In this document: positions 18,768 through 39,277 of the stretch, piece after piece | Layout: every line of letters starts with the position of its first letter | Numbering within the stretch: the stretch's first letter is position 1 | From: a virus | Length of the DNA stretch: 47,622 nt | Direction: 5' to 3' (one strand) | IMG/VR virus record: IMGVR_UViG_3300020601_000020 | Span: 1-47,622 of that record | Position numbers and translations under genes: made by a program | The notes under the pieces: generated by a model | Database searches by the model: none | The model's input: only the letters and a program-made list of their open reading frames with translations | What the model was told of the DNA's origin: nothing

Positions 18768-20213
18768 TTACACCGAACCGAATGCTGTTACAGTTCCGAG
18801 AACCGTCCAAGCACCAGCAAACCTAATAAGGGTAAAACTAGCAATATCAGTAGCACTCGGAGTTGACGTAGGAGCTGATGCGCCTTGCCATAAAATTGTC
18901 TGAGCCGCACCATCAATCTGAACGGCAGTGGGTAAATACCCCGTGGCTCCTTGACTAATAATTAGTGCCGCAGAGAGAGTTCTATCATCAGTAGTCGGCA
19001 CATTAGTAAAGTTAGCAGTGAAATCAGCAGCTACCGAACTATGTATAAACAACGATCTAGAAGTGATGTCATGAGTAACTACACCGGTTGCACCAGTTAA
19101 TGTTGTTGCTATTTCCGTAGTTGAACCAAAAGTTGTTAAAGCAGTAAATGATGTAGTAGCAGCAGGAGGTGTATATGTAAACACACCAGTTGAGTTATCA
19201 TAAGCAACAGCACCGTCACCTGATGCAGGTGCAGCGGCGCCTACTGAGATATCAGTTAGTGCTATTCCTCCGCCACTGCCGATCTCAGTATAATTAGTAC
19301 CGTCGTTTGTAAATGCCCAATAACCTTCGCTTTCGTCCCAAATTAACGCAACATCAGCAGCTGAGCCTCTGTTAACGCTTATACCAGCATCTTCAGTTGG
19401 AGTGCCGGATGCATCTCTGTTCAATTCGATAATGTTGTCTGCTAAACTTGTAATCTGCGAGTTAACAATAGTTTGTGTGCCACTGATTGTGACGTTGCCG
19501 TTAAACACTGCGTCATCGCTGTATGTTTTAGCACCTGCGATAGTTTGTGGACCACTGGTTCGGACCACTGTGCTGTCTGCTGTCAGGACGCCTGCACTGA
19601 CGGACACACCATCGCTGCCGGTGAGATATGATGTACCATCAACATATGCTTTTACTGACTGTTGAGATGGCAATCTAGTAGCACTATTGGAAGAAAAGTT
19701 ATCTTCGTCAATGAGTGCCGCGGTAATTCTTGCATCTGCTCTAGCATTTGTAAAGTATAGATTGCTTGACCCTTCACTCAATTCATCAGTGTCTGCTGCT
19801 CCAGCAGTAATACTAGCAGTAGTAACAGCGGTCACTCTACCTTTCGCATCTACTGTGACAACAGGAATAGCCGTAGAGCTACCATAACTAGCAGCGGTGA
19901 CACCTGAATCAGGAGTTGATATTGTAACCGAGTCTGTGCCTACTGCAACATCAATTTGATTCGATGTGCCGTTGACTGTAAGAGGAGTATCAGTTCCTAC
20001 AACAATGGTAAAAGTATTAGTACCGTCACTAACAGTCCAACCCGCTGTTGAGTTACTTAGGTCAGCCCTAGCAAATTCTATTCCACCACTAGTAGATCCG
20101 TCATGCAAATGCAATGACTTATTAGTAGTGTTTACTGTCAGTTCACCTTCTGCTCCAGTGAACGAAGACATATCTGAATTGGAACCACGTCTTAACTGTA
20201 GTTGCGTAGGCAT
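18768..20213 (-). CDS. Tail-fibre protein
   Basis: A 481-aa Ser/Thr/Ala/Gly-rich fibre-like protein. Its N-terminus (QLQLRRGSNSDMSSFTGAEG, then LHLHDGSTSGG) is paralogous to that of the 200-aa fibre gene downstream. The middle part contains GSSTAIPVVTVDAKGRVTAV, also present in the 458-aa fibre gene, then SSNLYFTNARADARITAAL. Residues about 220-300 (FNGNVTISGTQTIVNSQI, ADNIIELNRDA) are a fibre module common in marine T4-like phages. The C-terminal 160 residues are beta-rich and probably form the distal tip. No chaperone or chitinase motif is seen. It is separated by one base from the upstream 103-aa gene (TAGAATG). Confidence 0.85.
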   Translation of the reverse strand: MPTQLQLRRGSNSDMSSFTGAEGELTVNTTNKSLHLHDGSTSGGIEFARADLSNSTAGWTVSDGTNTFTIVVGTDTPLTVNGTSNQIDVAVGTDSVTISTPDSGVTAASYGSSTAIPVVTVDAKGRVTAVTTASITAGAADTDELSEGSSNLYFTNARADARITAALIDEDNFSSNSATRLPSQQSVKAYVDGTSYLTGSDGVSVSAGVLTADSTVVRTSGPQTIAGAKTYSDDAVFNGNVTISGTQTIVNSQITSLADNIIELNRDASGTPTEDAGISVNRGSAADVALIWDESEGYWAFTNDGTNYTEIGSGGGIALTDISVGAAAPASGDGAVAYDNSTGVFTYTPPAATTSFTALTTFGSTTEIATTLTGATGVVTHDITSRSLFIHSSVAADFTANFTNVPTTDDRTLSAALIISQGATGYLPTAVQIDGAAQTILWQGASAPTSTPSATDIASFTLIRFAGAWTVLGTVTAFGSV

Positions 20214-20214
20214 T

Positions 20215-20526
20215 CTAGGTCAACCCTCCGAGATCTTCAATTTGAATAGAACCACTTGGAGTATCTAGCGCGTCAAAACTTTGACTTGTTGCTTGACCAA
20301 AAGCATCAACCGATAACGCACTGAGATCTCCATAATCTCCTATAGGGAAAACTAGATTGGGATCACTCGCAGAAAAGTTAGCAATAGTCTGGATTGCTCC
20401 AGACGAATCTCGCATGTACACTGTTTTGTCAGGTATATTTACCGCAATTTCGCCTATCGCAAGATCTGATGTACTAGGCGCTGAGTTTGCAGTGTTACTT
20501 CTTTTTGGCTTTATTATGTTCGACAT
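20215..20526 (-). CDS. Short fibre-like protein with N-terminal fibre module
   Basis: A 103-aa protein starting MSNIIKPKRSNTANSAPSTS followed by DLAIGEIAVNIPDKTVYMRD. This is the N-terminal fibre module seen also in the 458-aa fibre gene (SDLAVGELAYAM). The rest (LSALSVDAFGQATSQSFDAL, DTPSGSIQIEDLGGLT) has no known fold to me. It is probably an adapter or the stub of a fibre whose distal part is encoded by a neighbour. It overlaps the upstream coiled-coil gene by 32 bases in a different frame. Confidence 0.8.
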   Translation of the reverse strand: MSNIIKPKRSNTANSAPSTSDLAIGEIAVNIPDKTVYMRDSSGAIQTIANFSASDPNLVFPIGDYGDLSALSVDAFGQATSQSFDALDTPSGSIQIEDLGGLT

Positions 20527-20695
20527 CTGCTTCTACAAACTCGCTTTGTTGTGGTTCTACTTGCGCGTTGTCATACTCTGCCAATTTCTCATTTGCAATT
20601 GCAAGTTTAGATTTAAGCAGAATATTCTCTAAGTTTAAATCATTCATTTGAGATGCGAGTGCATTCACATAAGTATTTATTAATTTCTCATCCAT
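20495..20695 (-). CDS. Small coiled-coil protein, function unknown
   Basis: A 66-aa protein starting MDEKLINTYVNALASQMNDL. Residues 1-45 form a regular amphipathic helix with a Leu/Ile heptad pattern (NLENILLKSKLAIANEKLAEY), and the tail is Lys-rich (HNKAKKK). I do not know its function. Small coiled-coil proteins of this sort occur between fibre genes of marine T4-like phages, so a chaperone or trimerisation role is possible. It has its own perfect late promoter and a hairpin in the leader. The next fibre gene starts within its 3' end. Confidence 0.72.
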   Translation of the reverse strand: MDEKLINTYVNALASQMNDLNLENILLKSKLAIANEKLAEYDNAQVEPQQSEFVEADVEHNKAKKK

Positions 20696-20712
20696 TTCAT
20701 TATCTCAAAATT

Positions 20713-20734
20713 GAGAGGACTGTATTGTCCTCTC
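20713..20734 (-). terminator. Hairpin between late promoter and coiled-coil gene (terminator or leader structure)
   Basis: GAGAGGAC-6 nt loop-GTCCTCTC is a perfect 8-bp stem. On the minus strand it is followed by AATTTTGAG. It could terminate transcription of the 458-aa fibre gene, whose stop lies about 28 nt upstream. It also falls just inside the expected 5' end of the transcript from the TATAAATA box at 20745-20752. The T run is short (4), so termination is plausible but not certain. Confidence 0.65.
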
Positions 20735-20744
20735 TTCATAATTT

Positions 20745-20752
20745 TATTTATA
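20745..20752 (-). promoter_or_regulatory. T4-type late promoter for the coiled-coil and following fibre genes
   Basis: Exact TATAAATA on the minus strand in the 66-bp gap after the 458-aa fibre gene, about 50 nt before the ATG at 20695. Confidence 0.78.
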
Positions 20753-20761
20753 CTAATTATA

Positions 20762-22138
20762 TTAGTAGGTTCCGCCATCAATCGTAGCCGCATTAATTGT
20801 TTTAGCAGTGTTGCTAGTCAAGAATGTGCCTACTCTCGTATCTGTGTAATACAGATTAGTAGAACCTTCGCTAATGTCATCAGTATCATGATTTGATACA
20901 TCGGAAACTGTGCCTGTAACGTTACCTGTAACGTTACCTGTAACATTGCCTGTTAAGTTGCCTTCAAATGCAGCGACAAGTGTAGCGACAGTGTACCCTG
21001 TTCCTGATTTATTTACTGTTGTGCCTGGAACTGCTTGCAGTGATTTAAATAAATGCCACTTATCATCAGATGCATCTCTGAATAAACCAGAGTACAAATC
21101 TAGTGATCCAGATGTGTCGTAAAGTCCATAGAAACCTATGTCAACAGCATCAGATGAATCGTTGCCAGTTGCTAATGAAAACAGCGGATCATTTACTGCT
21201 AAGTTTGTAGTATCAACAGTAGTTGTTGATCCACTTACTGTAAGATTTCCTGATACTGTCAAGTTACCTGATACAGTTGGGTTAGTTGCAAGACCTACTG
21301 TCATTGTATCAGTAGCACTTACAACAACATCGATTTCATTTGTTGTGCCACTTACTGTTAGCGTATCACCGCCTGCAACAGACTGTGTGTTGGAACCGTC
21401 TGACAAAGTAAATGCAGTGCTGATAGCCGCAGTAGAAACCGCAGTTACAAGACCTTTAGCATTTACAGTAACAACAGGAATAGCAGTTGTGCTACCGAAG
21501 TTACCTACGTTTGAGTTTACAGTAGCCAGTGTACCAGTACCCGTTACGCCGGCAGTACCATCAAAAGATGCTGATGTATATGCTAGGTCGCCCGTAATGG
21601 CAATAGTTCTACCAGTTGCCAATGCAGTTGCAGTGTCGGCATTACCTGTAAGGTCACCAGTTACATCGCCAGTTACGTTACCTGTTACATTACCTGTAAG
21701 GTCGCCAGTTACGTCACCAGTTACATTACCTGTAATGTTACCAGTGATATCGCCGATTAAATCGCCAGTTACGTTACCTGTGATATTACCCGTTACGTTA
21801 CCAGTAAGGTCACCTGTAAGGTCACCAGTTACATCGCCAGTTACGTTACCTGTAAGATCAGCTGTAATTGTTCCTGCAGAGAAATCTCCACTTGCGTCTC
21901 TCTTAACAAGCTGTAAAGCTGTGTTAGAGGAAGAGGCACCGTCTACAATATCGGTGTAATACTTACCACCAATAGCATGAATAGCAGCACCGCCGCTGTT
22001 TGTCGATTCGATGTAGAGTTTAGAGCCTACACCATCATTTGCGGTATCCATTGCATATGCAAGTTCACCTACTGCTAAGTCTGACGTAGTAGGGGCTGTT
22101 GCAGCAGACCCACGTTTAATTTGAATGGTCGAAGCCAT
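20762..22138 (-). CDS. Tail-fibre protein with G-[ND]-[VLI]-T tetrapeptide repeats
   Basis: A 458-aa fibre protein. The N-terminal module (TIQIKRGSAATAPTTSDLAV, then GSKLYIESTNSGG) is a fibre head like that of the 103-aa neighbour. Residues 94-165 are 18 tetrapeptides of the form [ND]-[VLI]-T-G, which suggest a beta-solenoid or triple-beta shaft. Then follow GSTTAIPVVTVNAKGLVTAV (shared with the 481-aa fibre), NLTVSGSTTTVDTTNLAVND, four more tetrapeptides (residues 394-409), EGSTNLYYTDTRVGTFL and a C-terminal INAATIDGGTY. AGGAG lies 6 nt before the ATG. Internal repeats make the gene prone to length change. Confidence 0.87.
   Translation of the reverse strand: MASTIQIKRGSAATAPTTSDLAVGELAYAMDTANDGVGSKLYIESTNSGGAAIHAIGGKYYTDIVDGASSSNTALQLVKRDASGDFSAGTITADLTGNVTGDVTGDLTGDLTGNVTGNITGNVTGDLIGDITGNITGNVTGDVTGDLTGNVTGNVTGDVTGDLTGNADTATALATGRTIAITGDLAYTSASFDGTAGVTGTGTLATVNSNVGNFGSTTAIPVVTVNAKGLVTAVSTAAISTAFTLSDGSNTQSVAGGDTLTVSGTTNEIDVVVSATDTMTVGLATNPTVSGNLTVSGNLTVSGSTTTVDTTNLAVNDPLFSLATGNDSSDAVDIGFYGLYDTSGSLDLYSGLFRDASDDKWHLFKSLQAVPGTTVNKSGTGYTVATLVAAFEGNLTGNVTGNVTGNVTGTVSDVSNHDTDDISEGSTNLYYTDTRVGTFLTSNTAKTINAATIDGGTY
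20912..20960 (-). repeat. Short 12-bp tandem repeat encoding G-N-[VL]-T
   Basis: Four near-identical 12-bp units (consensus GGTAACGTTACA on the minus strand) in the C-terminal part of the 458-aa fibre gene. They are the same unit as the larger array 0.7 kb upstream. Confidence 0.88.
21644..21859 (-). repeat. 18-unit 12-bp tandem repeat in a fibre gene
   Basis: Eighteen in-frame 12-bp units (consensus GGTRACGTTACW / GGTGACCTTACW on the minus strand) encode [ND]-[VLI]-T-G. Third-position variation shows the array is not freshly expanded, but several units are identical. Confidence 0.92.
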
Positions 22139-22165
22139 TGTTCTCTCCTAAGTTTATTGAATTTA

Positions 22166-22498
22166 TTATGACCCGAATGTTCCACCGTCTAACGTTGCGC
22201 CTGCATCCAATGTAGCTTGAATTGCAGTAGCTACTGCGGAACTAGTTCCGACTGATTCATCGACCTTAGTTTGCAGTGATACGGATTCCCATTTCTCAGT
22301 CTCAGCATTATAAACTAGAGTTTCCCCTGTAGCAATTACGCCATCTTCACCCTTATCTAAATTTCCTATATTGTCTTCTAACTTCGCAATTTTAATCTTG
22401 GAAGCGGCTGTTGTAGTAGCGATGATTGTACTGCCGCCGACAGAAACTCTCGCTGAATTGCTACCACCTGTAACTCGTACTTGTACTTCATTAGCCAT
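22166..22498 (-). CDS. Small fibre-associated protein, function unknown
   Basis: A 110-aa protein starting MANEVQVRVTGGSNSARVSV. Residues about 55-75 (GETLVYNAETEKWESVS) look like the short beta segment found in many fibre proteins. The C-terminus ATLDGGTFGS parallels the ATIDGGTY end of the 458-aa fibre protein downstream. I infer a fibre or fibre-attachment protein from position and this shared end. No catalytic motif is visible. The Shine-Dalgarno site is weak (AGAGG far from the ATG). Confidence 0.75.
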   Translation of the reverse strand: MANEVQVRVTGGSNSARVSVGGSTIIATTTAASKIKIAKLEDNIGNLDKGEDGVIATGETLVYNAETEKWESVSLQTKVDESVGTSSAVATAIQATLDAGATLDGGTFGS

Positions 22499-22525
22499 GT
22501 TATTTCGCTACCTCTTGCTTCTGAA

Positions 22526-22861
22526 TTACTTTGTTGCTTCTGGGGTAACTGTTACGATACCTTCAATTACTCTAAGCGTTTCAGAGTCTGCAATTGAGAC
22601 TACTTCTAAATCATACACATACCTACCTGCCTTCAATGTACTGGTCTGTGTTGCAGTTAAAGATAGCGTTATTACGCCTCCAGTAACATCAGTTTTTACT
22701 GCTGTAAATGCAGTATAAGTATTAGTGTAATAACTTTTACGAATGTGTGCAGTGGGTGTGTAGTTGGTCAGGTCTTTAGCTGTTCCATCTGGATTTGTCA
22801 TGTTTACCACAATAGAAAACGTGGTACCCTGATCGATTAGCAAATTGTTGATAGTAGCCAT
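22526..22861 (-). CDS. Conserved virion protein with beta-sandwich look
   Basis: A 111-aa protein starting MATINNLLIDQGTTFSIVVN. It has an IDQGTTFS-x(9)-GTAKDL pattern, then AHIRKSYYTN and GGVITLSLTATQTSTLKAG and RYVYDLEVVS. From memory this architecture matches a small structural protein of marine T4-like phages located next to fibre genes, with an Ig-like beta-sandwich resembling BppU N-terminal domains. The name is therefore an inference. It is the first minus-strand gene after the plus-strand cassette and has a perfect late promoter. Confidence 0.8.
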   Translation of the reverse strand: MATINNLLIDQGTTFSIVVNMTNPDGTAKDLTNYTPTAHIRKSYYTNTYTAFTAVKTDVTGGVITLSLTATQTSTLKAGRYVYDLEVVSIADSETLRVIEGIVTVTPEATK

Positions 22862-22905: not shown

Positions 22906-23592
22906 ATGAAAACTATACTCACCCTGAAATATGGGAACAAGTACAGCGCGTCTGATGTAAACACTATTTATGACGCTACTGAGGGCGCATATAACTATGT
23001 TTGCTTGACTGACGATCCTATAGGACTTTACAGTGACATAAAAACAGTGCCCGTCGATGCTGAGTATGGTCATTGGAACAAGGTTCTAATGCTAGGTCTA
23101 AAGGATCTAGGTGACGTACTGTACTTAGATTTAGATGTCCATTTACAGCAATCAATTGTTGACATCTGGAAGCATTGTCAGTATACTGCGTCTGTCGCTT
23201 TCACATACTGGAAATCAGATACTTTTCCGACTAAGCGTTTAGAGTCTAATCCAGACCCTATGATGAGCTATCTCGGAAACTACAATTCAAGCGTTATGCT
23301 ATGGCGAAGTGGTCACTGCAATCACATAGTAGATAAATTTGTAGCAGATGAAGATTACTACATGGTTAAGTATTGCGGTGGCGATGATCGATTTCTTTGG
23401 CATGAATGCGAGTTGAATGCATTGCCTAAAGGATTGATATACTCATACGTCTATGGCGCAGACTATATATATGATAACAAATCATTTGAATACCGACCTG
23501 ACTATATGATCGCCTTGTTGAATGGGATTGATCGACACAAAAATGTGAGACAACGATACTATGATGCACTTTCTGTGCATGAAATGGGGTGA
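22906..23592 (+). CDS. GT-A-like glycosyltransferase, paralogue 1
   Basis: A 228-aa protein and the first gene of the only plus-strand block. It begins TILTLKYGNKYSASDVNTIY, continues with YVCLTDDPIGLY, and has LYLDLDVHLQ with Asp75/Asp77 as the probable DxD metal site. YNSSVMLWRSG comes later. These blocks recur in three other genes of the cassette and fit a GT-A nucleotide-sugar transferase fold. Sugar donor and acceptor are unknown. There is no Shine-Dalgarno site at the ATG 22906 and no late promoter on this strand. The gene overlaps the next by 32 bases. It lacks the region of about 60 aa (HPKHWFG type) present in paralogues 2 and 3. Confidence 0.78.
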   Translation: MKTILTLKYGNKYSASDVNTIYDATEGAYNYVCLTDDPIGLYSDIKTVPVDAEYGHWNKVLMLGLKDLGDVLYLDLDVHLQQSIVDIWKHCQYTASVAFTYWKSDTFPTKRLESNPDPMMSYLGNYNSSVMLWRSGHCNHIVDKFVADEDYYMVKYCGGDDRFLWHECELNALPKGLIYSYVYGADYIYDNKSFEYRPDYMIALLNGIDRHKNVRQRYYDALSVHEMG

Positions 23593-25768
23593 TAAGTATT
23601 CCCCTGATTATGTAAACAATCTTTACCACATGGTCAATAGAAATTATAGTAAGAGATTTAAATTCTTTTGCTATACTGACGATGCCTCTGGATTAGAGAA
23701 AGGAATACAAGTCAGAGCGATTCCTGACATAAAGCCATTGCATCCCAAGCACTGGTTTGGCAGAGAAAATTACTGCTGGGACAGAGCAAAGTTTCTACTG
23801 TTCAATTCTCACTACTGGCTAAAAACGAAAGGACCCTTTTGCTACTTTGATTTAGACGTTGTTATTCAAAATAACATCGATGACTTTTTCGAGTTAGCAA
23901 CCGCTGGTCCGCATATGGTTTACAGTAACTGGGATGACCCAGCAAATCTGAATCATAGAGCATTTAAAAATATCAAAGGCACTCCTTATAATTCTAGCGT
24001 CATGCTATGGAATAGTGATCAGTGTGAAAAAATATACAATGATGTAATTAAGAATACAGATGTTGTATTTAAAACATTCTTCAAAGGATCTGATAATTAT
24101 CACTACTGGCGTGAAGAACACGTTGTGGGTAAAAACTTTTGGAAGTTTCTATCTGATGATTCTGTCTACTCTTACAATAGGGGTAGAAAATTCCCTGAAG
24201 ATATTGAAGAACATCTGTACAGAGAAGATGCGCAAATATGTCTGTTCAACACAGACTTAGTTCCAGGTGATCGCGTACAATACAAGCCGCACGAATTGCA
24301 GAAAGACTATGACTTGCTGATTCACTGGCATGGTAAAGATGACTTTGAAAGATTGTGGTTACCTAAGCTGCCTGAAAACTTCTTTGATTACACTACAAAA
24401 GATCTAAAAATAATTCAAGACATGGTTGATAGAGAAGACCATGTACAAATAGCAGATAAGTTTTTATCTGAGTTCCCTAGATTCACGCGAGAATGGGGTA
24501 GATATCACAAAGACTACGACAAGATGAAAAACTGGTTGCAGTTTGAATGGTTGAAAGAACGAGCGATCACAGACCGGTATTTGAATTATGAAGCACATCA
24601 ACTCATAAAAGAAAACTATGATTCTGGTGATCTTGTTTCTATGCATAAAACATTTGTCGATGCGTTTCCAGAAGATACTACTATCAAAGAAGCTGATCAG
24701 AGTATGCTATGGAACATGTCATACGAAGAGATCTGTGAGACCTTCGATACACTGTATGCATATCAACGACAAGATTGGCTAATGCAACAGTACAAAGAGA
24801 ACGGACCGTCTGTTTTCTTTTGGCATGCGACTTATAATGAGCTTGCTGAGTTGTACAAAAAATACTACTTCCACAATCTGACTGAGTTGTTTTACGATGA
24901 AAGATACGAAGAAGTATTTGAGAGACTCTACAACATCATGCCTAGAGAAGAGTTGCTGCGTGTTCTGAATCAACAGGGCGATGATAATACGCTGTTTAAA
25001 TATTTTCAGAGTTACGGCGAAGAGTTTAGCGACTTGTACAAAGGGCTGTATGATGAGAAGCCTGACGGTGCAATCATACAAATGTCTACTGCTAGAAATG
25101 ATACGGGCAACGAATTCAACGATATCTTTATTGATGGGCAAGAAATGTCTGCAAAGAAACTCGGTGAGATATTTGATGGGTACGATGTAAATTGGATTAC
25201 ACTCTCATGCGAAATAGCAGAGCCTGTATTGTGCGACAATTTTACAGAGGTGTGTGAGTTCTTTAATAAGCGAAACATCCCTATAACTCTGCAAACTAGA
25301 TTAAAAAATCTAGTATTAGATGTTGATGTCGCTGAAATAGTTTACCTCCCACCTGAAGAAATATCTGAAGAAGAACAGTCTGTGCAGGACACGATTGATA
25401 ACAACAAGCCCGTCGATTTAGAAACTCTGCGTAAGTTCTATCACACTATAGAGACTCGCAATAGAAGAACAAAAGCAAAAGACAAAGATCCTGTTTGGTG
25501 CGATGCAAGAAAGAGTTCATACTTCTACATAAACTCTGCGGGCAATACTTTCCCATGTGCATTCATTGCAAGAGATGTCACCGAAAACAAATTATTTCCG
25601 TATCATCCTATTGACTACCCTTTCAATATGCAGTATAATGATAGTACAAAGTTTCCTATTGAAGAGATAATATATAATAGTGATATGCAAAACATAAGTG
25701 AACATTTGAAGAGAAACCCCTTGCCTATATGCAAGAAGAAGTGTGGAGATTGTAATGCGTCGTGTTAA
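23561..25768 (+). CDS. Glycosyltransferase fused to SPASM-type cysteine domain
   Basis: A 735-aa fusion. Residues about 1-290 are a GT-A-like transferase (CMKWGDKYSPDYVNNLY, FFCYTDDASGLE, CYFDLDVVIQ with Asp97/Asp99, YNSSVMLWNSDQ, VYSYNRGRKFP). Residues about 290-495 are helical with repeated FxxxFPxFTREW and LxELYKKYY-like segments. Residues about 499-600 resemble half of a TIM barrel (IIQMSTARNDTG, TEVCEFFNKRNIPITLQTRL). The end is SPASM-like: Cys647 and Cys666 in CDARKSSYFYINSAGNTFPC, then Cys724, 728, 731 and 735. No CxxxCxxC radical-SAM motif occurs; the three cysteines of the middle part (550, 558, 565) are wrongly spaced. An alternative start is ATG 23579. Confidence 0.8.
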   Translation: MMHFLCMKWGDKYSPDYVNNLYHMVNRNYSKRFKFFCYTDDASGLEKGIQVRAIPDIKPLHPKHWFGRENYCWDRAKFLLFNSHYWLKTKGPFCYFDLDVVIQNNIDDFFELATAGPHMVYSNWDDPANLNHRAFKNIKGTPYNSSVMLWNSDQCEKIYNDVIKNTDVVFKTFFKGSDNYHYWREEHVVGKNFWKFLSDDSVYSYNRGRKFPEDIEEHLYREDAQICLFNTDLVPGDRVQYKPHELQKDYDLLIHWHGKDDFERLWLPKLPENFFDYTTKDLKIIQDMVDREDHVQIADKFLSEFPRFTREWGRYHKDYDKMKNWLQFEWLKERAITDRYLNYEAHQLIKENYDSGDLVSMHKTFVDAFPEDTTIKEADQSMLWNMSYEEICETFDTLYAYQRQDWLMQQYKENGPSVFFWHATYNELAELYKKYYFHNLTELFYDERYEEVFERLYNIMPREELLRVLNQQGDDNTLFKYFQSYGEEFSDLYKGLYDEKPDGAIIQMSTARNDTGNEFNDIFIDGQEMSAKKLGEIFDGYDVNWITLSCEIAEPVLCDNFTEVCEFFNKRNIPITLQTRLKNLVLDVDVAEIVYLPPEEISEEEQSVQDTIDNNKPVDLETLRKFYHTIETRNRRTKAKDKDPVWCDARKSSYFYINSAGNTFPCAFIARDVTENKLFPYHPIDYPFNMQYNDSTKFPIEEIIYNSDMQNISEHLKRNPLPICKKKCGDCNASC

Positions 25769-26570
25769 TTATGTTTGCTCTAAGTGGGGTACGAAATACG
25801 GTCCGCATTTTGTGAATCGACTTAAAAATATGGCATTCAGAAATACTTCATCTGAGTTTGAAGCGCATTTCTATTGCTATACTGATAATGCAGAGGGTTT
25901 AGATGCCGACATCAATGTTATCGATTTTCCTGATATTCCTAATATCCATCCTAAGTATTGGTTTGGTGCTGAAGATTTTAAGTATGGTATGGCTCGTTGT
26001 TGGGACAGGCCTAAGACTTTTGTTTTCAACACTCACAATTTTGCTCATGACAAGCCTACTGGTCGTTTTGTTTTTTTCGATCTCGATGTTATCATCCAAC
26101 GTGACCTTACTCCTATTATAACATATAACTTGGAGCGACCTACTAAGATGAAGTCTTGGTGGCAAGATCCTAGACCAATGAATACGAGACGATTTAAACT
26201 TTCCCATGGTGCGTATACTAATGGTAGTTGCCAAGTCTGGAGTGACGATCAATGCGAACCTATTTGGAATGATGTATTAGAAAATCAAGAAAAGATATGG
26301 TTCACATTTACTGATGGTACCGACAATTATCATAGTTGGCGTTGGGGTAGATATGGCGCAGATCTCTGGGATCACTTTCCCAGCTGGATGGCATACTCTT
26401 ACAATCGAGGCAGGTCGTGGGACGAAGATGATTTGAATGTAGGTATCTACAGGGACAATTGCATCGTATGTGTGTTCAATGTTGACTTACTTCCGTTTGA
26501 AGATGAAAGCAGAGGTAGCACGAAACAAGATGAATTGGTAGATCCAAATTTACTGGCACATTGGAAATGA
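25755..26570 (+). CDS. GT-A-like glycosyltransferase, paralogue 3
   Basis: A 271-aa protein closely related to the N-terminal domain of the preceding fusion gene: VCSKWGTKYGPHFVNRL, FYCYTDNAEGLDADI, HPKYWFGAEDF, VFFDLDVIIQRD (Asp109/Asp111), GTDNYHSW and AYSYNRGRSW. It ends soon after the GT domain, so it corresponds to the transferase without helical or cysteine-rich parts. The frame is open from a GTG at 25743, but ATG 25755 has GGAG 6 nt upstream and is preferred. It starts within the last 14 bases of the fusion gene, and its stop overlaps the next start. Confidence 0.83.
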   Translation: MRRVNYVCSKWGTKYGPHFVNRLKNMAFRNTSSEFEAHFYCYTDNAEGLDADINVIDFPDIPNIHPKYWFGAEDFKYGMARCWDRPKTFVFNTHNFAHDKPTGRFVFFDLDVIIQRDLTPIITYNLERPTKMKSWWQDPRPMNTRRFKLSHGAYTNGSCQVWSDDQCEPIWNDVLENQEKIWFTFTDGTDNYHSWRWGRYGADLWDHFPSWMAYSYNRGRSWDEDDLNVGIYRDNCIVCVFNVDLLPFEDESRGSTKQDELVDPNLLAHWK

Positions 26571-27148
26571 ACGAAATACGAGTTTGGAATAATCGAAACT
26601 GGCTTTGGCCTGTAGAAGATTATTTCTGCTGGAGAGACAACACACATTTCCATGCTACAATGCCGTATGATATTATTGATACGATAGGCAATGTTTCAAC
26701 AGTAGTCCACGCAGGAGGTAACTGCGGCATCTATACGTCAATGTATGCATCGCTTGCAAATGAAGTTATAACATTTGAGCCAGAGCTAAACAATTTTAAA
26801 TGCCTGTTGCATAATGTGTATGAAGAGAATGTGATAATGCATAACGCAGCATTGGGTGATAAGACTACTGGTGTTAGTATTTCAATAGATCCAATAAACG
26901 CTGGCGCATCTTATGTAATAGGAGAGGGGCTTATACCTCAAGTTAGACTAGATGATTATAACTATGCTCCCGACTTGTTGCATTTAGATGTAGAAGGGTA
27001 CGAAGAGTATGCATTGTTAGGCGCACTTGAAACTATAGAAGAACATCGACCTGCCATTGTGCTTGAAAGAGGCAATGGTGAAGATATAATTTACGATTTA
27101 GGATATAAGAGCGTGAAAAAATTCGGTCTAGACTGGCTTTACATATGA
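26567..27148 (+). CDS. FkbM-family methyltransferase
   Basis: A 193-aa SAM-dependent O-methyltransferase of the FkbM type. SAM motif I is VVHAGGNCGIYTSMYA, followed by EVITFEPELNNFKCLLHN with the acidic residue of motif II. Then come MHNAALGDKTTG and LLHLDVEGYEEYALLGA, the typical HxDxEG-like segment of this family. FkbM enzymes methylate sugars or secondary metabolites, which fits the surrounding glycosyltransferases. It is somewhat short for the family. The ATG overlaps the previous stop as ATGA, so the cassette is translationally coupled. A TTG at 26561 is a weaker alternative. Confidence 0.86.
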   Translation: MNEIRVWNNRNWLWPVEDYFCWRDNTHFHATMPYDIIDTIGNVSTVVHAGGNCGIYTSMYASLANEVITFEPELNNFKCLLHNVYEENVIMHNAALGDKTTGVSISIDPINAGASYVIGEGLIPQVRLDDYNYAPDLLHLDVEGYEEYALLGALETIEEHRPAIVLERGNGEDIIYDLGYKSVKKFGLDWLYI

Positions 27149-27819
27149 ACATTTATACTGTGAAATGGGGCAGCAAATATGTTGCTTCTCATGTAAATCA
27201 GTTACTGGATAGCTGTAAGCAGCATCTGAGTTGCCCTTTTCAATTTCATTGCATCACTGAAGATGGTGAAGGATTGTCAGAAGAAATAAATGTTATTCCC
27301 ATTCCAGAGAACAATCGTATGGAAAAGTGGTGGAATAAAATGTATCTGTTTGATGATTTGATTGTCACTCAGAAAGGTGAAAAAATGTTCTTTGACTTGG
27401 ATGTAATCATACAGAAAAATATTGATGTGATTGCAGAATGGGAAACGGGTGACTGCTTGACATTCGTTAAGACATGGTGGCATGACTTGGATGATTCGTA
27501 TGAAAACACTCGCCACATCCCGCATAAATATACAGACTTAAACTCTAGTGTTCTACGTTGGAATGATTCACTTGATACTAGGGCAATCAAAGAATACTTT
27601 TTAAAGTATAAGAAGCAAATTTTATGGTATTATCGTGGGCTTGACAATTTCTTTTATAATAGAAGAGTAGTAAAGCAGAAACTGTTTCCAATAGGTTGGG
27701 TGTATAGTTTCAATCAGGGCTTCTTGTTTCCGCAAGATACCGAAAAACATGTCTATAGGGAATTGCCCTATATTTGTATTTTTGACTCAATGGGAAAAAG
27801 TGAAGATGTCAAATTCTAA
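27145..27819 (+). CDS. GT-A-like glycosyltransferase, paralogue 4
   Basis: A 224-aa member of the same paralogous set: IYTVKWGSKYVASHVNQLL, FHCITEDGEGLSEEI, MFFDLDVIIQKN (Asp84/Asp86), DLNSSVLRWNDS, GLDNFFYNRR and VYSFNQGFLFP. It lacks the HPKHWFG insert and is nearer in length to paralogue 1. Its ATG overlaps the FkbM stop (ATGA). The last 14 bases overlap the next gene. The acceptor is unknown. Confidence 0.82.
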   Translation: MNIYTVKWGSKYVASHVNQLLDSCKQHLSCPFQFHCITEDGEGLSEEINVIPIPENNRMEKWWNKMYLFDDLIVTQKGEKMFFDLDVIIQKNIDVIAEWETGDCLTFVKTWWHDLDDSYENTRHIPHKYTDLNSSVLRWNDSLDTRAIKEYFLKYKKQILWYYRGLDNFFYNRRVVKQKLFPIGWVYSFNQGFLFPQDTEKHVYRELPYICIFDSMGKSEDVKF

Positions 27820-28501
27820 GTTGAACAGTAACTTTCTGAATAACTATAAAAACTGGGGTGAAGCGATGCATGTGATCGAAAGACGCATGCCGCACAAGCT
27901 GACAGATTTTCGTGAATCATTGTCTAATAATAACGTCGAAGCGAGTATATGGCTCGTTGAAGAACTGAAAGAATATCTTGAGGAGCATTATCTAAAGACA
28001 GGTAACTTGCGTGTACTGATATTGAATTCTTGGCTCGGCATTCCAATGGTACCATTGTTGTGTGAGAATCTAGATATTTCACAGTTGCATTTGGTTGATA
28101 TAGACGAAGAGGCAATTGAACTATCTAAGATTTTTCACAAGTACTACGCGCAAGAAAAGTTCATCAAGACTAGGCATCACAACCTAGACATCCCGTTTGA
28201 ATTTGACAATCTAAACAAGATTGAAGTTGATGTTGTAGTGTGCGTTCAGACTGAACAGATGTATCCTCTCAAAGATCTACGAACAAAGAATCCGCATGCT
28301 GTGTTCGCATTGCAAAATAGCAATGTCGTAGAAGAGATGTATGGCATAAATTGTGTTGATTCAATCGATGCACTTAAAGATCAGATTGGATTGGATGAGG
28401 TGAACTACGAAGGCTCTAGACCGCAAAACTATTATGCTTGGGACGGTAAGAAAGAGTTTGAAAGGTATATGATTATCGGTCAACGAGACGGGCTGCTTTA
28501 A
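27806..28501 (+). CDS. Putative class I SAM-dependent methyltransferase
   Basis: A 231-aa protein. Residues about 60-130 look like a Rossmann SAM fold: LRVLILNSWLGIPMVPLLC (motif I place, but without the usual GxGxG), QLHLVDIDEEAIELSK (acidic motif II) and VDVVVCVQTEQMYPL (motif IV). The frame extends upstream to 27749, but ATG 27806 (MSNSKLNSNF) is preferred since it gives a 14-base overlap with the transferase gene and AAGTGAAG precedes it. The end meets the convergent oxygenase-like gene: both stops share bases at 28498-28501 (TTTAA). Substrate unknown. The degenerate glycine motif lowers confidence. Confidence 0.65.
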   Translation: MSNSKLNSNFLNNYKNWGEAMHVIERRMPHKLTDFRESLSNNNVEASIWLVEELKEYLEEHYLKTGNLRVLILNSWLGIPMVPLLCENLDISQLHLVDIDEEAIELSKIFHKYYAQEKFIKTRHHNLDIPFEFDNLNKIEVDVVVCVQTEQMYPLKDLRTKNPHAVFALQNSNVVEEMYGINCVDSIDALKDQIGLDEVNYEGSRPQNYYAWDGKKEFERYMIIGQRDGLL

Positions 28502-32692: not shown

Positions 32693-35600
32693 TTATGCCT
32701 GTAATGCAATTCCTCGTAGGTTCTTAACTGCGGGAACCGAAGAAGAGTTTGAAGATTTCAATACAATCTTAATTGCAAAATCATTAAATCTAGTGTAAGT
32801 AATAGTAGATACTGCCGCTGTAGCTGTTGCACTTGTGCCACCACCTCCAGTTAATGTTATAGTAGGAGCACTTGCATATCCTCTACCAGGATCAGTTACT
32901 ATTATACCTGTGACAGCACCACCTGAAATCTGAGCAACGCCTGTTGCCTGTTTCCAAGCACCTCCACCAGAGAACGTTACAGTAGGAGCACTTGTGTATC
33001 CTGAACCACCAGCAGTAATTGTTGTACTACTTACACGCTTAATAATGTATTCTAATACATCATTGTCAGAACCACCAAGTCCTACATTATTAGATCCTCG
33101 CAACGGAAGAGTGTAGACCGTTTCTACAAACTTATTCGGAGATGATACTGCGTCAGATGATGTTGCCATCTGTACCCAATACAAATCATCTCTAAATTTC
33201 GCGTCATCTTCTGTTGCTCTGAATTTCGCGTAGACTTCAATGCTACCTTCTACCGGTATACGTTGATCTAAGTACACGCGCATATCTTCAGATTGATTCT
33301 CTTTGTTTAATTGTACAATCTTAGAGATGTACTTACAAGTAGCATCACCACTATTTCTATCATCTTCATTTGTAGAATCATTGTTAATAACATTGGCTTC
33401 TAGTTGATATGTCGCTCTTGACAAGTCAATTACCGGTGATATAAAGTTGTTTGGTGATGTAAAGATCGCCTCAGTTTTAAAAGATTTAGCTTGCCCAGTT
33501 AACCCAGTTATTTCATTTGATCTAGAGAAAACTGCATACTCTGAGGGAGTGAATGCTTCTTCTGCTCTACCAATCTTAGTTTCTACAGTACCAGCTGCCG
33601 ATGCTGCTGACCCTGTGCCGTAAAAACTGTAGTCTAATCTGCTGTTAGCAGGAGTCAAGTCTGTGAAGTTGTGGGCGATTCTATTGTATGTCTTATTGTT
33701 GATCGTGTCGATTGTTGCCTGAGAAGACCCAGTACCAACAACATCACCAACAGCAAATGACCCAGAATCAATATCTACCGTACAAGTTGTAAACTTATTC
33801 TTAAATTCAACCACACTCGCAGTGTTTGTAGTGATATTGAATGTAGCACCAGTACCACTACCATCTGTAGACGCCTGTGCAACGGCTGAACCATTTGCAG
33901 TGTAGTTTGTTCCCATCAATCCAGCTTTCACCCCGGTAATTGCACCTGAGTTTACAGTGGTAACAATCAAAGTTGCCCCTGTGCCGTTACCGAAAGAATT
34001 CAAAGTAACGACATCATCTACGACATATCCTGAACCACCGCCCGCTATCGTAACATCAAACTGGTGAATAGCATCAATGTTGCTAAAGAATCCAGTTGTG
34101 AAGTCTTTCAAAGTCCAGTAATCAAAGTCTTCGTTATTGAAGACAGCTTTCCCGCCGAGTTTACTGAAACTAGCTCTCTTTAAACTGTACTTAACATCTT
34201 CTGCTTGAATCGCGTTCCAAGTTCTATTGTTTGAAGATACAAACAAAACACCCACTGAAGAATCTCCTGCCTGTATGCGTTCTGTTGTTCCTAACTGATT
34301 CTGTCCTAATTCTGATACCCATGCTTCATATCCTGGGTCATTCGCTTGGGGCATCAACACAAAGCAATACTCTTTACCAGATCCTAAATACACTGGAGAG
34401 TCAAACGTGAACGTTGTTGCCGTTGTTGCATCTTCTGAAATGTTTACATTAGCAGCCGTCTTGAATACAGAACCGTATGGTACGATGCTGCTTCCAGGAT
34501 ATCCGTTAACGACTTCTCTTATTTGTAGAGTTATGCCATTAGTAGCAGATTTTGTCTTAAAGAAGACATCAATGCTGCTTGCAAATATACCATGTCCATT
34601 CGTAATGTTGAATGTCTGTGCGAGTGGGTCTGCGCCGGTCATACCGATATCACCAATTCCAATATTGAGTTGGAAGTCTGTCCAATCAAAAACAAAATCG
34701 TCCGGAAGCGTAAAGCCCGCATCCTCTGCTTCTGTTACCACCTCTACCGGCACCTCAGTAGTGGGCGGGTCAACGGGATCTGGAGTAACCGGGGGTTGCT
34801 CTGCTGCCGGCGCAACTGCGACTGGGGCACCGGGTATAGTTTCAAGCGATTCGTTAATCGTATTAGCCGTAGTGTTGGTAGTTTGATTGAGTGAAGCATT
34901 TAACCTTACACCTGTCGTAACCGATCCAACTACTCGCGAGGGCGGATTTGCTGCTTGAAAGCCCATTGTAATATTTGGTCTAACAGTACTCAAGTTGAGC
35001 CTGGAAGATTCAATTGTTGTATTTACAAATGAGGAATATTCAGACGCAGCAGATGATGTCACAAAACCATTTCTATTTTTAATATCATTACTGAGTACAA
35101 TTAACTTATTGCCTACGCGATATCTGTTAGGTGGTATGCGGATCTGCGCTACTATTCTACCAGTAGAATCAGACTCTACATAGCCATTTGTCCAAACACC
35201 TGCGCTTGTAACTGCACTGTAAGAGCGTCTCTTCTGTGCTGCCGTGAGACCATCAAAGAATGCTGTTGGAATCTGTCTGACTTTCGCCGCAGTTGTTCCT
35301 GTGATTCTATCGCCTTCAAGCGCACCATCAAAAAATACATAAAATCTTGTGTTAGGCATTAACCGAGTAGCTTCAACAAAGATAGTTCGCTGTCTGATAA
35401 ACTCGCTGAATGAAATGTCCCTGACTGCTGTGAATGAACCTTCTTCAAAGTCAGATAAGTTAGCGTTTGTATTTACACCAAGAATTTCCGTAAACTGCGA
35501 AATGTCTCTACTGGTAACAGTCAATTCACTGTCTATCGTTGTGGTAGTAGTATCAACATATTCGATATCTGTGGTTCGTAATACAGTGTCTGCCGTAGAC

Positions 35601-38600
35601 TGACCATCTCTCAATGTCTGTGTTTCTGCTTCAACTTCCTGTGTAACAAAAGTAGACGAGGAACTAGATGTTGAAGTATCACTCTGAGTTGTATCAGATG
35701 CGCTACCCATTGTGATAGTGGATCTAGTTACACCTGCTGTTCCTAAGTTATCAAATGCATTTACTAGCGCAGTAGCAGAACCTTTCAGTCTGATATTTAC
35801 TGGCTCAGGAGATACATCCTTATCCGAAGATGTGTCAGATGTAGGAAATACTTTCATATCGCCATTGTAATTAAATAGCAATTCACCTACGCAATTTCTT
35901 GGCTTAGATGCAGCATTGTTTTTGCTGTATTCTACTTGTGTGTATGGCAGTGTAATAAGGTTACCTGTAACTTGAACATTTGCAGATGACCCTGAATTGT
36001 ACTCCAAGTCAATGCTATGCTCTAATATAGTAGGACCACCTTCGTGTAACATATCATTGATACCAAAGTTTAAGTCGGCATCGTTTACGTTCATCAGATC
36101 GTGGTTACTAAAACTATCTACAAAGAATCCATTCTTGAATCTATCTAAGCCGTTTGCATCTGGTATATTTTTACTTGCAGTTGCAGACTCTAGGAAGTTC
36201 AATGAAGCGTAGTATTCCAATCTACCAATTCGCTTTTCAATCGCTGCAATATCTTGCATTGTAAAACGTCTGTTTTGTTTTACGTCAATTCGGCATGCTA
36301 AATCAAGTCTAGATTGTTTCTTAGCTAATGAATACGGAAGTGATGGATAAGGCGGAATGACCAAATCTGCAATCAACATGCTACCAGGATTAAAGATAGG
36401 TGCTGTTGGATTAGGAGCAGGACGCCCCTCAACGTTAGTAATGTTACCATCATCTGACATCAAAATTCTATCAACTCTTCCCTCCCAGTATTCGCCGTCA
36501 GTTGCATAAGTCTCCCTAGGCATTGGAAATTGATACCCACCGCTGACTGTTCTGATATCATTTCCAATTGCAGGGTTTTCAGTAGCTCCCCCAATGGTGC
36601 TAGAATCAGCTGCCGTGTTATCAATGTATGGTCTGAAATCGATTGCATCTCGTAGATCTACTCTTCGCTTTCCTCGCAATGTGTGCATAGGAATTTGATA
36701 TGTGTAGAACGAAGGAGTGACCGCAGTCAATTCATCTGCTGGATACGAGTCTACTACAAAGTATGTTGATTGACTTGCAGCGTAGTTGGGCTCCAAGTAG
36801 CTTAACTTAACAAGAATACTTTTGCTTGATGTGTCTAAGTTGCCAGTCTTGATCAATTGTGAGTGTGTATACAGGTTATCAGTCTGACCAGTAGTCGATT
36901 TGAATAATTCTTTGTAATCTGTTGTAGTATCATCGTATGAGCTACCAACAAAAACACCTTCAATATCGTATACGTTGCAGATACCTAAGTTCCAAGGACC
37001 TGTTGAACCACCTGCGTTTGTTGCAGTATCGATCTTCACATACTTGCTCTTATTAGCAGTAAGAGGTACTGGGGTAGTATCAGTCTGTTTTACTTTAATA
37101 TAAAACTTTGCGTCCGCAGTGTTACTTAATGTTGTGCCGATATCTAAAGCGATAGCTGTTGCAGATGTACTTGTAAAATGCGATGATTGCAAATCAAAAA
37201 TCTGACCAGCAGCATATGCTGTTCCATCAACAGTAACTGCCTCTTTAAACACCATGATGAATTCATCATCAATTTGTGTCTGAGACGGTGTCGATGAATA
37301 TGGGAACGTTTCTGTACCGCTCACACTTAGAGTAGAGGTGCCATTAGTAGCAAAAGTCACAGTAAATTCTTTCTGGAATGTGAAATTGTTGTCGTATGTG
37401 TTGATAGGGTCAACTTCAATTGTCTTCATTGCCCTTGCTGGCATTGGGAACAACATTTGATTCTGCAATTGATTGAAGATTAACGGAGAGCCACTGTTGT
37501 TGTCAAACAACACATCGCCCGCACCATTAAAGTTGCTTGTAGCTGAATCAAAGTAAACCGATTTAATGTTCGCTAAAGCACCGCCGCTCATATTGATGCT
37601 GTATAAGTACAAGCGATATACTGCTTCAGGTGCGCCTGGTGTGCCACTTTCTCTTGTGATATGTCGCACTCTAGCACTACCAATAATATTACTTGGGGCT
37701 GCAACCGCTCCATATGTGTTTGCTCTACTAGAACCTGTAGTTAACACATCGAAAGTAAGCGATGCGCCGCCGCCAGAACCCAATCTGCTGTCAGGCACAG
37801 TGATAGTTTCATCAACTATGAAGCCACTACCACCTTCAATTATTTGTACTGTAGCCGCACCAGCAGCACTGATAGTGATCAAGAATTTTGCATCAATACC
37901 ACTATTCTGTGTTGTGTATGCGCCAGGCTCAATTAAATAAGTGCCTTTTAATCTTAGAGTATCTGCGGCTGAGATTGTGTCAACAGTAAGAACACCATCA
38001 GTGTTCATGTTTGCATCTAGTGCAGCATCACCAAAATTTATCTGACTTCCTGTAGAAATGTCCCATTCACCTGCAAGGTTGTTTACGCGAATATAGTTTC
38101 CGTAAACAGTTGATGTTGTAATAGACTCTTGCAGTATGAAGTCCTTACCTTTTCTAACCTTCAAGTAAGTAGGAGCGATAAGTTCATGTGTTCTTCCGCG
38201 AACAACCGCTTTACCATCTGCAACACCTACAGCAATGTGTGAAGCTGATCCACCTCTAGCTGTTTCAAGTAAGCCGTCATTTTCAGCGGTTAGATCGTTT
38301 AAATGCTCTCTTACAGAGACTTGAAAGTTTTTGCTTGTGTAATGTCCACTTTCTAAATATGTCCTTTCTGCTAATCTGTCGCCGATCAAGTTGTAGATAG
38401 ACAAGTCATCTTCTACAACAGATGTAGATTTTTTACCGTCTACAATGCGAGAAAGACTTACAAAAGTATCCTCGATTGTATCAGTATCAGATCTGAACAC
38501 CAGTTCAGTGTAGACCTTATATCTGTCTGCACCAGGAGCACTGAAGTTGAATGTGCCAGATGCTGGATCTAACAGCGTGTTGTCATCACCTGAGTTGACG

Positions 38601-39277
38601 ATTGCTTCTTTAATTAATACACCGACAAATCCATTAACTGGGTCACCAAATTTACTAACTAGAACGTCTTGCGTTGCATGCTCAATGAACTTACCGCCGA
38701 AATATATTAGCCCAGCGTCAACCGAAAAGTGTGTAGAGTCGCCTCTGAAATGCTTTGCGCGTTCTAGGCTTTTGTTTGAATCAACGACAAAGGTATCGCC
38801 ATTTCGACCACCATCAGATGATGATACGGTAAGCACTTCACTAGCACCGAATCGCGTTTCAGTTGTAGATGAGGAACCTTCTACATATGCTAAGTACAAG
38901 GTCTTTTTCAAAGAGACATCTGTATCGTCACCAGTCAAAACTTTTTTGATTACAGCTTTTACGCCGCTTGTGCCGCCGGTAACAGTGTCGCCAATATAGT
39001 CTGCTAAAGTAGAATTTGAAACTGCAACAGAGCTATTGTCCAAATCGTCAATCTTTACGAATGGATATTTTTGCAGAACGTCTTTGCAGCCGAGTACAGG
39101 AGAACCGTCAACAAATATATGCTCACCAAAACGAGCAATTTGATTCTGTAAGATACTCTGTAGTTGAGTTAATTCTCTTGCTTGTACAGCGAATCCAGGC
39201 TTAAAAAGAATTCGGTTAAAATTCTTGGTAGCGTCAAAGTCGTCATAATATGGACCTGTGTTTAGATTCAATGCCAT
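32693..39277 (-). CDS. Giant baseplate/virion protein (DUF4815-type N-terminus)
   Basis: A 2194-aa protein. Its N-terminus ([39 protein letters not shown]) is the start of a large family of marine T4-like virion proteins I know as DUF4815. Other conserved parts are [20 protein letters not shown] with [10 protein letters not shown], and DPLAQTF plus [11 protein letters not shown] followed by [14 protein letters not shown] Pro/Val linker lies near residues 1480-1515. GSGYTSAP-like modules lie near residues 467-512, 1740-1815 and 2086-2165. By position after gp8 it may take the place of T4 gp10/gp9 and link fibres to the baseplate (inference). It is the longest gene of the window. Confidence 0.85.

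Follow-up and report, generated by a model that had tools for sequence, protein, structure and literature searches.

A phage glycosyltransferase fused to a putative radical-SAM pseudoenzyme module in T4-like marine phages

Pseudoenzymes acting as adaptors are already known, and in GeoRSP_SPASM (TIGR04304) a SPASM protein is paired with a separate radical-SAM protein, with no glycosyltransferase involved. In GtfA/GtfB (Gtf1/Gtf2), the second protein is reportedly non-catalytic and binds the acceptor; we know of no radical-SAM or SPASM part in this pair. Part of PMC5207161 describes GtfA/GtfB as a two-protein glycosyltransferase complex of serine-rich adhesins. According to an excerpt of PMC6231123, the SPASM signature reads CX9-15GX4C-gap-CX2CX5CX3C-gap-C, and the Twitch region of SkfB has five conserved cysteines. 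Here, a gene of 735 amino acids (aa) is described that lies on a 47,622-nucleotide stretch of virus DNA (positions 1 to 47,622 of IMG/VR record IMGVR_UViG_3300020601_000020; this whole stretch is the window). It very probably encodes a glycosyltransferase domain followed by a dead radical-SAM remnant and a Twitch-type cysteine site.

The confident part of the predicted model shares the barrel arrangement of the radical-SAM Twitch/SPASM enzymes BtrN, SuiB, SkfB, CteB and MoaA, and the window protein also has their order of C-x13-G-x4-C, a gap and a C-terminal cysteine group. Unlike these enzymes, it lacks the CxxxCxxC motif and retains half a barrel, and where SuiB, SkfB and CteB have a peptide-recognition domain it has an N-terminal glycosyltransferase. 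Parts of this domain are 36% and 32% identical to single-domain Kyanoviridae proteins (Mosig and C48C1), annotated as glycosyltransferases, which measure 225-226 aa and have no such tail. GtfA/GtfB is the nearest analogue in the way it works, but belongs to an unrelated family. A literature search, mainly of open-access work with few subscription journals or preprints, found no described enzyme combining a glycosyltransferase with a dead radical-SAM/SPASM part, in agreement with a first, sequence-only reading of the window; the portions seen of PMC7159879 and PMC6423787 mention radical-SAM/SPASM proteins and glycosyltransferases and describe no such fusion. The domain combination is real and conserved, and is assembled from known parts.

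The open reading frame (ORF) is intact where the sequence-only reading had placed it (Table 1). A frame error splitting the gene, or a chimera, was ruled out by intact copies on many contigs, including identical (L002 and L006, 100%) and near-identical ones (L003 and L004, 99%), and the fusion architecture recurs in dozens of IMG/VR contigs. Residues 1-272 show 42%, 32% and 28% identity to three neighbouring single-domain proteins, two of which match PHROG 1962 (glycosyltransferase) at 2e-9. The DxD motif of GT-A enzymes is found as D97, L98 and D99, invariant in all 12 rows of the paralogue alignment. The model of this domain has a predicted local distance difference test score (pLDDT) below 50 for residues 54-271, and the GT-A assignment leans on PHROG 1962. 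When its profile was compared with PDB sequences, MS5a alone matched (3.6e-5), over a partial stretch. The following residues 281-440 are predicted as mostly helix (pLDDT 77-91 per block), and in relatives of 807-912 aa this helical middle is extended and contains self-similar stretches.

The part preceding the C-terminal domain had been taken for a piece of a radical-SAM barrel, which is supported by structure comparison of the predicted model. Residues 495-600 model as a partial beta/alpha barrel (fragment blocks 31-100, pLDDT 83-96). Using this C-terminal model, Foldseek against the PDB ranks SuiB first, with a probability of 1.00 and an E-value of 9.1e-3. In VIA-align, among the best 50 of 999 aligned chains, the first 23 rows are all radical-SAM enzymes and row 24 is unrelated (Z 5.0). 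BtrN (Z 9.4, root-mean-square deviation 3.2, 126 aligned) and SuiB (Z 9.3, deviation 3.7, 134 aligned) lead, with MoaA (Z 7.8), BlsE (7.6) and SpeY (7.5) as further radical-SAM matches. A Z below 8 may reflect a common arrangement, and weight is placed on the clean separation of the rows. The full-length model, a separate prediction, likewise gives radical-SAM proteins in its first 17 rows (best Z 7.7) before an unrelated row at 5.0. In a virus structure library, the named top matches are radical-SAM or iron-sulfur (Fe-S) proteins, at E 0.01 and above.

The lack of CxxxCxxC extends well beyond the window protein. Among 58 distinct frames, some of them truncated, this spacing was seen solely at the very C-terminal end, where no barrel follows. 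It is absent from the 160 residues before the SPASM part in all 41 distinct sequences picked by their SPASM-side cysteine pattern (40 of the window protein's own family, family A, plus L401), and from the 12 rows of a sister lineage, family B. At the expected place of the motif lies a Cys-free loop, of which N513, D514, D521 and F523 are invariant in a conservation alignment of 36 rows, 34 of them distinct, that was limited to sequences with the C-terminal part complete and omitted truncated frames. Cys 550 and 565 are missing in two of these rows (L135/L137). Pfam Radical_SAM (PF04055) gave no match at E 0.01 in the window record and one among ten scanned relatives (L108, E 0.64); against NCBIfam, the window protein gave no match at E 1. 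A weak match of TIGR04317 to L014 (E 6e-4) was not relied on, nor were matches of viperin, MoaA and QueE models to two of seven sister-family rows (E 0.003-0.024), two others being matched similarly by unrelated families. Searching PDB sequences with C-terminal profiles yielded one chance-like match for A1 (E 0.4), chance-like matches at E 0.6 and above for A6, and none at E 1 for A7. After loss of the cluster and half the barrel, the C-terminal module should, judging by sequence and model, be unable to do radical chemistry. Two further readings were rejected: a stretch of L299, considered as a mutated CxxxCxxC, is placed at the first helix by family alignment and profile match, and a longer relative with a restored barrel, suggested by tblastn spans of about 3000 bases, dissolved when these spans turned out merely to join the downstream paralogous glycosyltransferase.

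The cysteine layout proposed for the C-terminus was confirmed, apart from two details. C647-x18-C666 and C724-x3-C728-x2-C731-x3-C735 are present in the window protein, but C735 occurs in 4/36 rows and G661 in 18/36. The stretch C647-x13-G661-x4-C666 agrees with CX9-15GX4C, the opening half of the SPASM signature. A Pfam SPASM match spans residues 647-728 with 22.2 bits in a six-frame search (cut-off 21.5), while the same model gives 16.2 bits (E 0.014) on the whole protein, under the cut-off, and 19.2 bits on the C-terminal piece. Among relatives, Pfam SPASM (PF13186) matches 13 of 17 rows at E up to 1, and 6 of 10 in another scan. As C647, C666, C724, C728 and C731 are kept together in all 36 aligned rows, the match is regarded as more than chance. 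The full seven-Cys motif is not found in this alignment, where five cysteines are conserved and the motif lacks its second half. The cysteine domain of the sequence-only reading thus stands, but it is closer to a one-cluster Twitch than to a seven-Cys SPASM domain. The cysteine layout of a Twitch domain (CX9-15GX4C, a gap and a second Cys pair) is found in the window protein, with the glycine varying as above, and the hairpin-then-helix order appears in the model, where pLDDT is 73 for the hairpin block and low for the helix. Going by the sequence, this five-cysteine site probably holds one structural Fe-S cluster. Compared with L007 and L010, the SPASM part is 94-96% identical and the barrel part 65%. 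The ratio of nonsynonymous to synonymous substitutions (dN/dS) of the SPASM part is 0.02-0.08 in 4/6 pairs where computable, synonymous sites being saturated in many comparisons. The gene end with the overlapping next start (25730-25770) varies slightly among near-identical relatives, which end in NASC, NAC, NAS, NES or K.

Instead of the lone oddity or split active enzyme initially considered, the protein represents a conserved virus family whose sister lineage carries the module as a separate gene. Sixteen virus records, selected because they hold a twitch-type radical-SAM gene (16 of 80 loci), were searched by profile for the module, giving one clear family B relative on a 71.5-kb record and one weak match (E 0.007). 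On the 71.5-kb record, a 259-aa gene encodes the glycosyltransferase by itself, and a 512-aa gene carrying the module overlaps it. The N-terminus of this 512-aa protein matches the glycosyltransferase profile (E 6e-5, probability 65%) and has V/I-T-P opposite DLD in 12/12 rows, making it a DxD-less glycosyltransferase-like domain. Its barrel remnant is fuller than that of family A, and the protein has no match among annotated phages at E 0.01. A scan gave 32 sister-lineage loci, and the C-terminal profiles of the two families match each other at E 9.2e-12 (probability 97%). Since L401 combines the sister architecture with a five-Cys C-terminus, the five-Cys site is probably ancestral on sequence grounds, and the radical cluster would have been lost before families A and B split. 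In family B protein L303 (6001-7539) both halves look catalytically dead, yet the mean column identity is 72% over eight rows; the family B protein also has an invariant C-terminal NDFYKGYFNNLLKLNP block.

Next, the surroundings of GT3, the single-domain glycosyltransferase-like gene downstream of the module, were surveyed in 80 of 470 stretches, those most similar to a family B neighbour, which makes the sample B-biased. The module lies at most 2.6 kb upstream of GT3 in 72/72 testable loci, the other 8 of 80 being too short; 71 of these modules are nearer to family B (L401 included) and one to family A. A matchless ORF of 110-237 aa sits directly before GT3 in 16 of 53 closely inspected loci, so the module is not always adjacent.

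The favoured explanation, with a probability of roughly 0.45, is a phage glycosyltransferase with a radical-SAM-derived pseudoenzyme as a fixed acceptor- or partner-binding module. The N-terminal domain would catalyse transfer by means of its DxD motif and a sugar nucleotide. The C-terminal module probably derives from a radical-SAM Twitch/SPASM enzyme, a class acting on peptides or small molecules; judging by sequence and predicted fold, it has lost the radical cluster and half the barrel, but retains the five-Cys Twitch-type site and, where the active site used to be, the conserved Cys-free loop. Most likely it would bind an acceptor, such as a tail-fibre protein or another virion protein from a gene next to the cassette, or dock a partner, and present it to the glycosyltransferase. 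This binding role is proposed tentatively. In the sister lineage, the same job could be done in trans by a separate protein whose glycosyltransferase-like and radical-SAM parts both look dead. The module is fused to the glycosyltransferase in family A and encoded by a separate gene overlapping a single-domain glycosyltransferase in family B; the fusion in the former and the doubly dead protein in the latter are best read as an accessory glycosyltransferase subunit. Tail- and structural-type genes adjoin the cassette. A more specific version, in which a captured, metal-bearing radical-SAM/SPASM peptide binder, cis-fused or doubly dead in trans, acts as an adaptor choosing the protein acceptor for a glycosyltransferase that decorates the phage's own tail fibres, is rather doubtful.

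Several observations weigh against the favoured explanation. No Foldseek match has an E-value as low as 0.001, and unrelated folds already turn up at rank 3 (E 0.013), while among the VIA-align matches listed five chains reach Z 8, a value above the peak of the full-length model (7.7). The Twitch/SPASM part is modelled poorly, with pLDDT blocks mostly at 32-45 apart from the hairpin block at 73, and its fold and metal therefore rest on sequence. Most of the last 95 residues are of low confidence in the prediction, leaving room for a plain zinc ribbon, the fold named beforehand as speaking against SPASM. In more distant pairs, the SPASM part is no better conserved than the glycosyltransferase part, its identity being equal or lower in some of them (57% vs 63% for L028). 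Family B has lost two of the five SPASM cysteines, keeping C-x18-C and one terminal Cys in 11 rows with a full C-terminus, and L328/L329 lose a third, the second of C-x18-C, which means that not every member needs the metal site. When profiles were compared with the active Twitch radical-SAM proteins that the phages themselves encode (N_Twi_rSAM, NF033640), the module shared just a short C-terminal Cys motif, and direct descent from these proteins is not supported. The identity of the acceptor is a guess, and part of PMC7029224 reads pelagimyophage glycosyltransferases as modifiers of the host O-chain.

The same published reading of these enzymes, as O-chain modification (part of PMC7029224), favours a tail that extends, for structural reasons or for oligomerisation, a glycosyltransferase altering host-surface polysaccharide. 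The Cys site would then merely be a fold-stabilising zinc or Fe-S site, with no acceptor bound. An FkbM-type methyltransferase gene in the cassette is consistent with such a role, and sequence cannot tell which metal is held. However, a structural extension has no obvious need for a barrel remnant with a conserved loop, or for a separate gene in the sister lineage, and this alternative is considered unlikely.

Whether the module might serve a radical-SAM enzyme in trans was approached through stand-alone radical-SAM genes, which the sequence-only reading had suggested looking for elsewhere in the phage. These were found in five long relatives but not in the window record. G002, G003, G004, G016 and G017 (116-166 kb), the longest of 11 searched records, each hold six or seven genes that score above the NF033640 cut-off (twitch domain-containing radical SAM protein). 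No gene over this cut-off was found in the six shorter records, including the window record and its 96-kb near-identical relative, both of which may be incomplete; the 96-kb relative has one weak radical-SAM match under the cut-off. At E 1e-10, none of six cultured T4-like phages carries an NF033640-type gene. N_Twi_rSAM proteins of the long relatives have a similar Cys-G-Cys half motif, but this motif is N-terminal, their CxxxCxxC is intact and their profile similarity to the module is limited to the short motif. Radical-SAM gene arrays of the twitch-domain type are seen in uncultured T4-like phages (L068 6907-18081, L071 7963-19223 and L072/L073; G004, G002, G003), accompanied by genes for a NodU-like carbamoyltransferase and by sugar-metabolism-like genes. 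Two more radical-SAM genes (L067 12560-13735 and L070 7700-9310), from the same phage record, have B12-type families as best NCBIfam matches (TIGR04072; PhpK and HpnJ), under the cut-offs.

Based on these genes, a split enzyme can be imagined in which the SPASM part provides an auxiliary cluster or a substrate dock in trans to one of the phage's own stand-alone radical-SAM proteins, coupling radical modification to glycosylation. The abundance of such genes in the five longest records and their lack in cultured relatives agree with it, as does the fact that annotated phages show the glycosyltransferase part alone; in addition, part of PMC5332604 reports 12 radical-SAM genes in one T4-like marine genome and part of PMC7029224 radical-SAM gene cassettes in pelagimyophages. 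However, the family of these stand-alone proteins takes its name from a Twitch domain of its own, and in G002-G004 the distance to them is about 45-50 kb. Such genes are also common in viruses without the module, as the 16 records chosen for such a gene gave just the one clear family B relative and the one weak match. An in-trans partner is unproven, because the window record has none and the 96-kb relative only a weak match (with both records perhaps incomplete), and a split enzyme appears distinctly unlikely.

A vestigial tail, i.e., a decaying relic of a captured radical-SAM gene, would explain the loss of half the barrel in family A, of Cys 550 and 565 in L135/L137 and of part of the SPASM cysteines in family B, but is highly improbable with five cysteines and the N-D/D/F loop invariant in 36/36 rows, the SPASM part as best-conserved domain in two close pairs with the low dN/dS given above, and the module retained at 72/72 loci.

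The window covers the structural module of a T4-like marine phage, with genes for the major head protein, scaffold, portal, tail sheath, terminase, sheath stabiliser, head closure and baseplate on the minus strand. Among annotated phages, Methylophilales and Pelagibacter phages match the baseplate genes best (36-38% identity). Overlapping plus-strand genes, the 735-aa gene among them, form a run with tail- and structural-type genes on one side (18768-22861; of four tested, one had no match) and, further along, a 2194-aa gene on the other. This arrangement resembles the pelagimyophage host recognition cluster, which part of PMC7029224 describes as a variable island that carries tail fibres and glycosyltransferases and is bounded by VrlC and gp14; the 2194-aa gene would then correspond to VrlC. 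GT3 has no PHROG match of its own. Besides the FkbM-type methyltransferase (26561-27148, Pfam E 6e-8), the cassette holds a possible second methyltransferase (27749-28501), and the FkbM gene is missing from the otherwise similar cassette of L032. Five records of annotated phages match the 735-aa protein, all within the glycosyltransferase part alone. Matches to the glycosyltransferase include records named Tetraselmis viridis viruses S20 and SI1 (algal host per record), one of which has a phage head-closure annotation under the match. A first genome scan with short peptide patterns, by which distant relatives could be missed, found no cellular relatives. A second scan gave one contig of a metagenome-assembled genome (L402, PCBP01000045.1), filed under a Flavobacteriales bin, that carries the tail-type and glycosyltransferase genes of the phage cassette and is probably a misbinned phage fragment.

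Table 1. Coordinates of the 735-aa gene, its domains and neighbouring genes in the window
Feature	Position	Strand	Basis or remark
Whole gene, 735 aa	23561..25768	+	ORF; layout shared with relatives: glycosyltransferase, helical middle, putative pseudo-radical-SAM half barrel, Twitch/SPASM-type domain
Glycosyltransferase domain, residues 1-272	23561..24376	+	PHROG 1962 (E 0.0071) and identity to three neighbours; called GT-A-like for DxD
DLD, residues 97-99	23849..23857	+	DxD motif expected of a metal-dependent GT-A enzyme
Helical middle, residues 273-494	24377..25042	+	Model and comparison with relatives
Putative pseudo-radical-SAM half barrel, residues 495-600	25043..25360	+	Confident fragment model; Foldseek, VIA-align
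Cys-free loop N-D-T-x4-N-D-I-F, residues 513-523	25097..25129	+	At the expected CxxxCxxC place, as suggested by its position after the first strand
Variable linker, residues 601-640	25361..25480	+	38-70% identity in six pairwise comparisons; shortened in L135 and L137
Twitch/SPASM-type domain, residues 641-735	25481..25765	+	Five invariant Cys (codons 25499, 25556, 25730, 25742, 25751); Pfam SPASM
GT1, upstream single-domain glycosyltransferase	22906..23592	+	Overlaps the 735-aa gene by 32 bases
GT3, downstream single-domain glycosyltransferase-like gene	25743..26570	+	Overlaps the 735-aa gene; 42% identical to residues 2-256
GT4, single-domain glycosyltransferase, same cassette	27145..27819	+	
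2194-aa gene, function unassigned	32693-39277		PHROG 358

If the tail selects an acceptor, it would offer a testable handle on the targets, virion proteins or host polysaccharide, of the many glycosyltransferases that marine T4-like phages encode in their host-recognition region. It would likewise mean that selection can maintain a SPASM/Twitch domain in the absence of radical chemistry, a point relevant to which roles auxiliary clusters have other than electron transfer.

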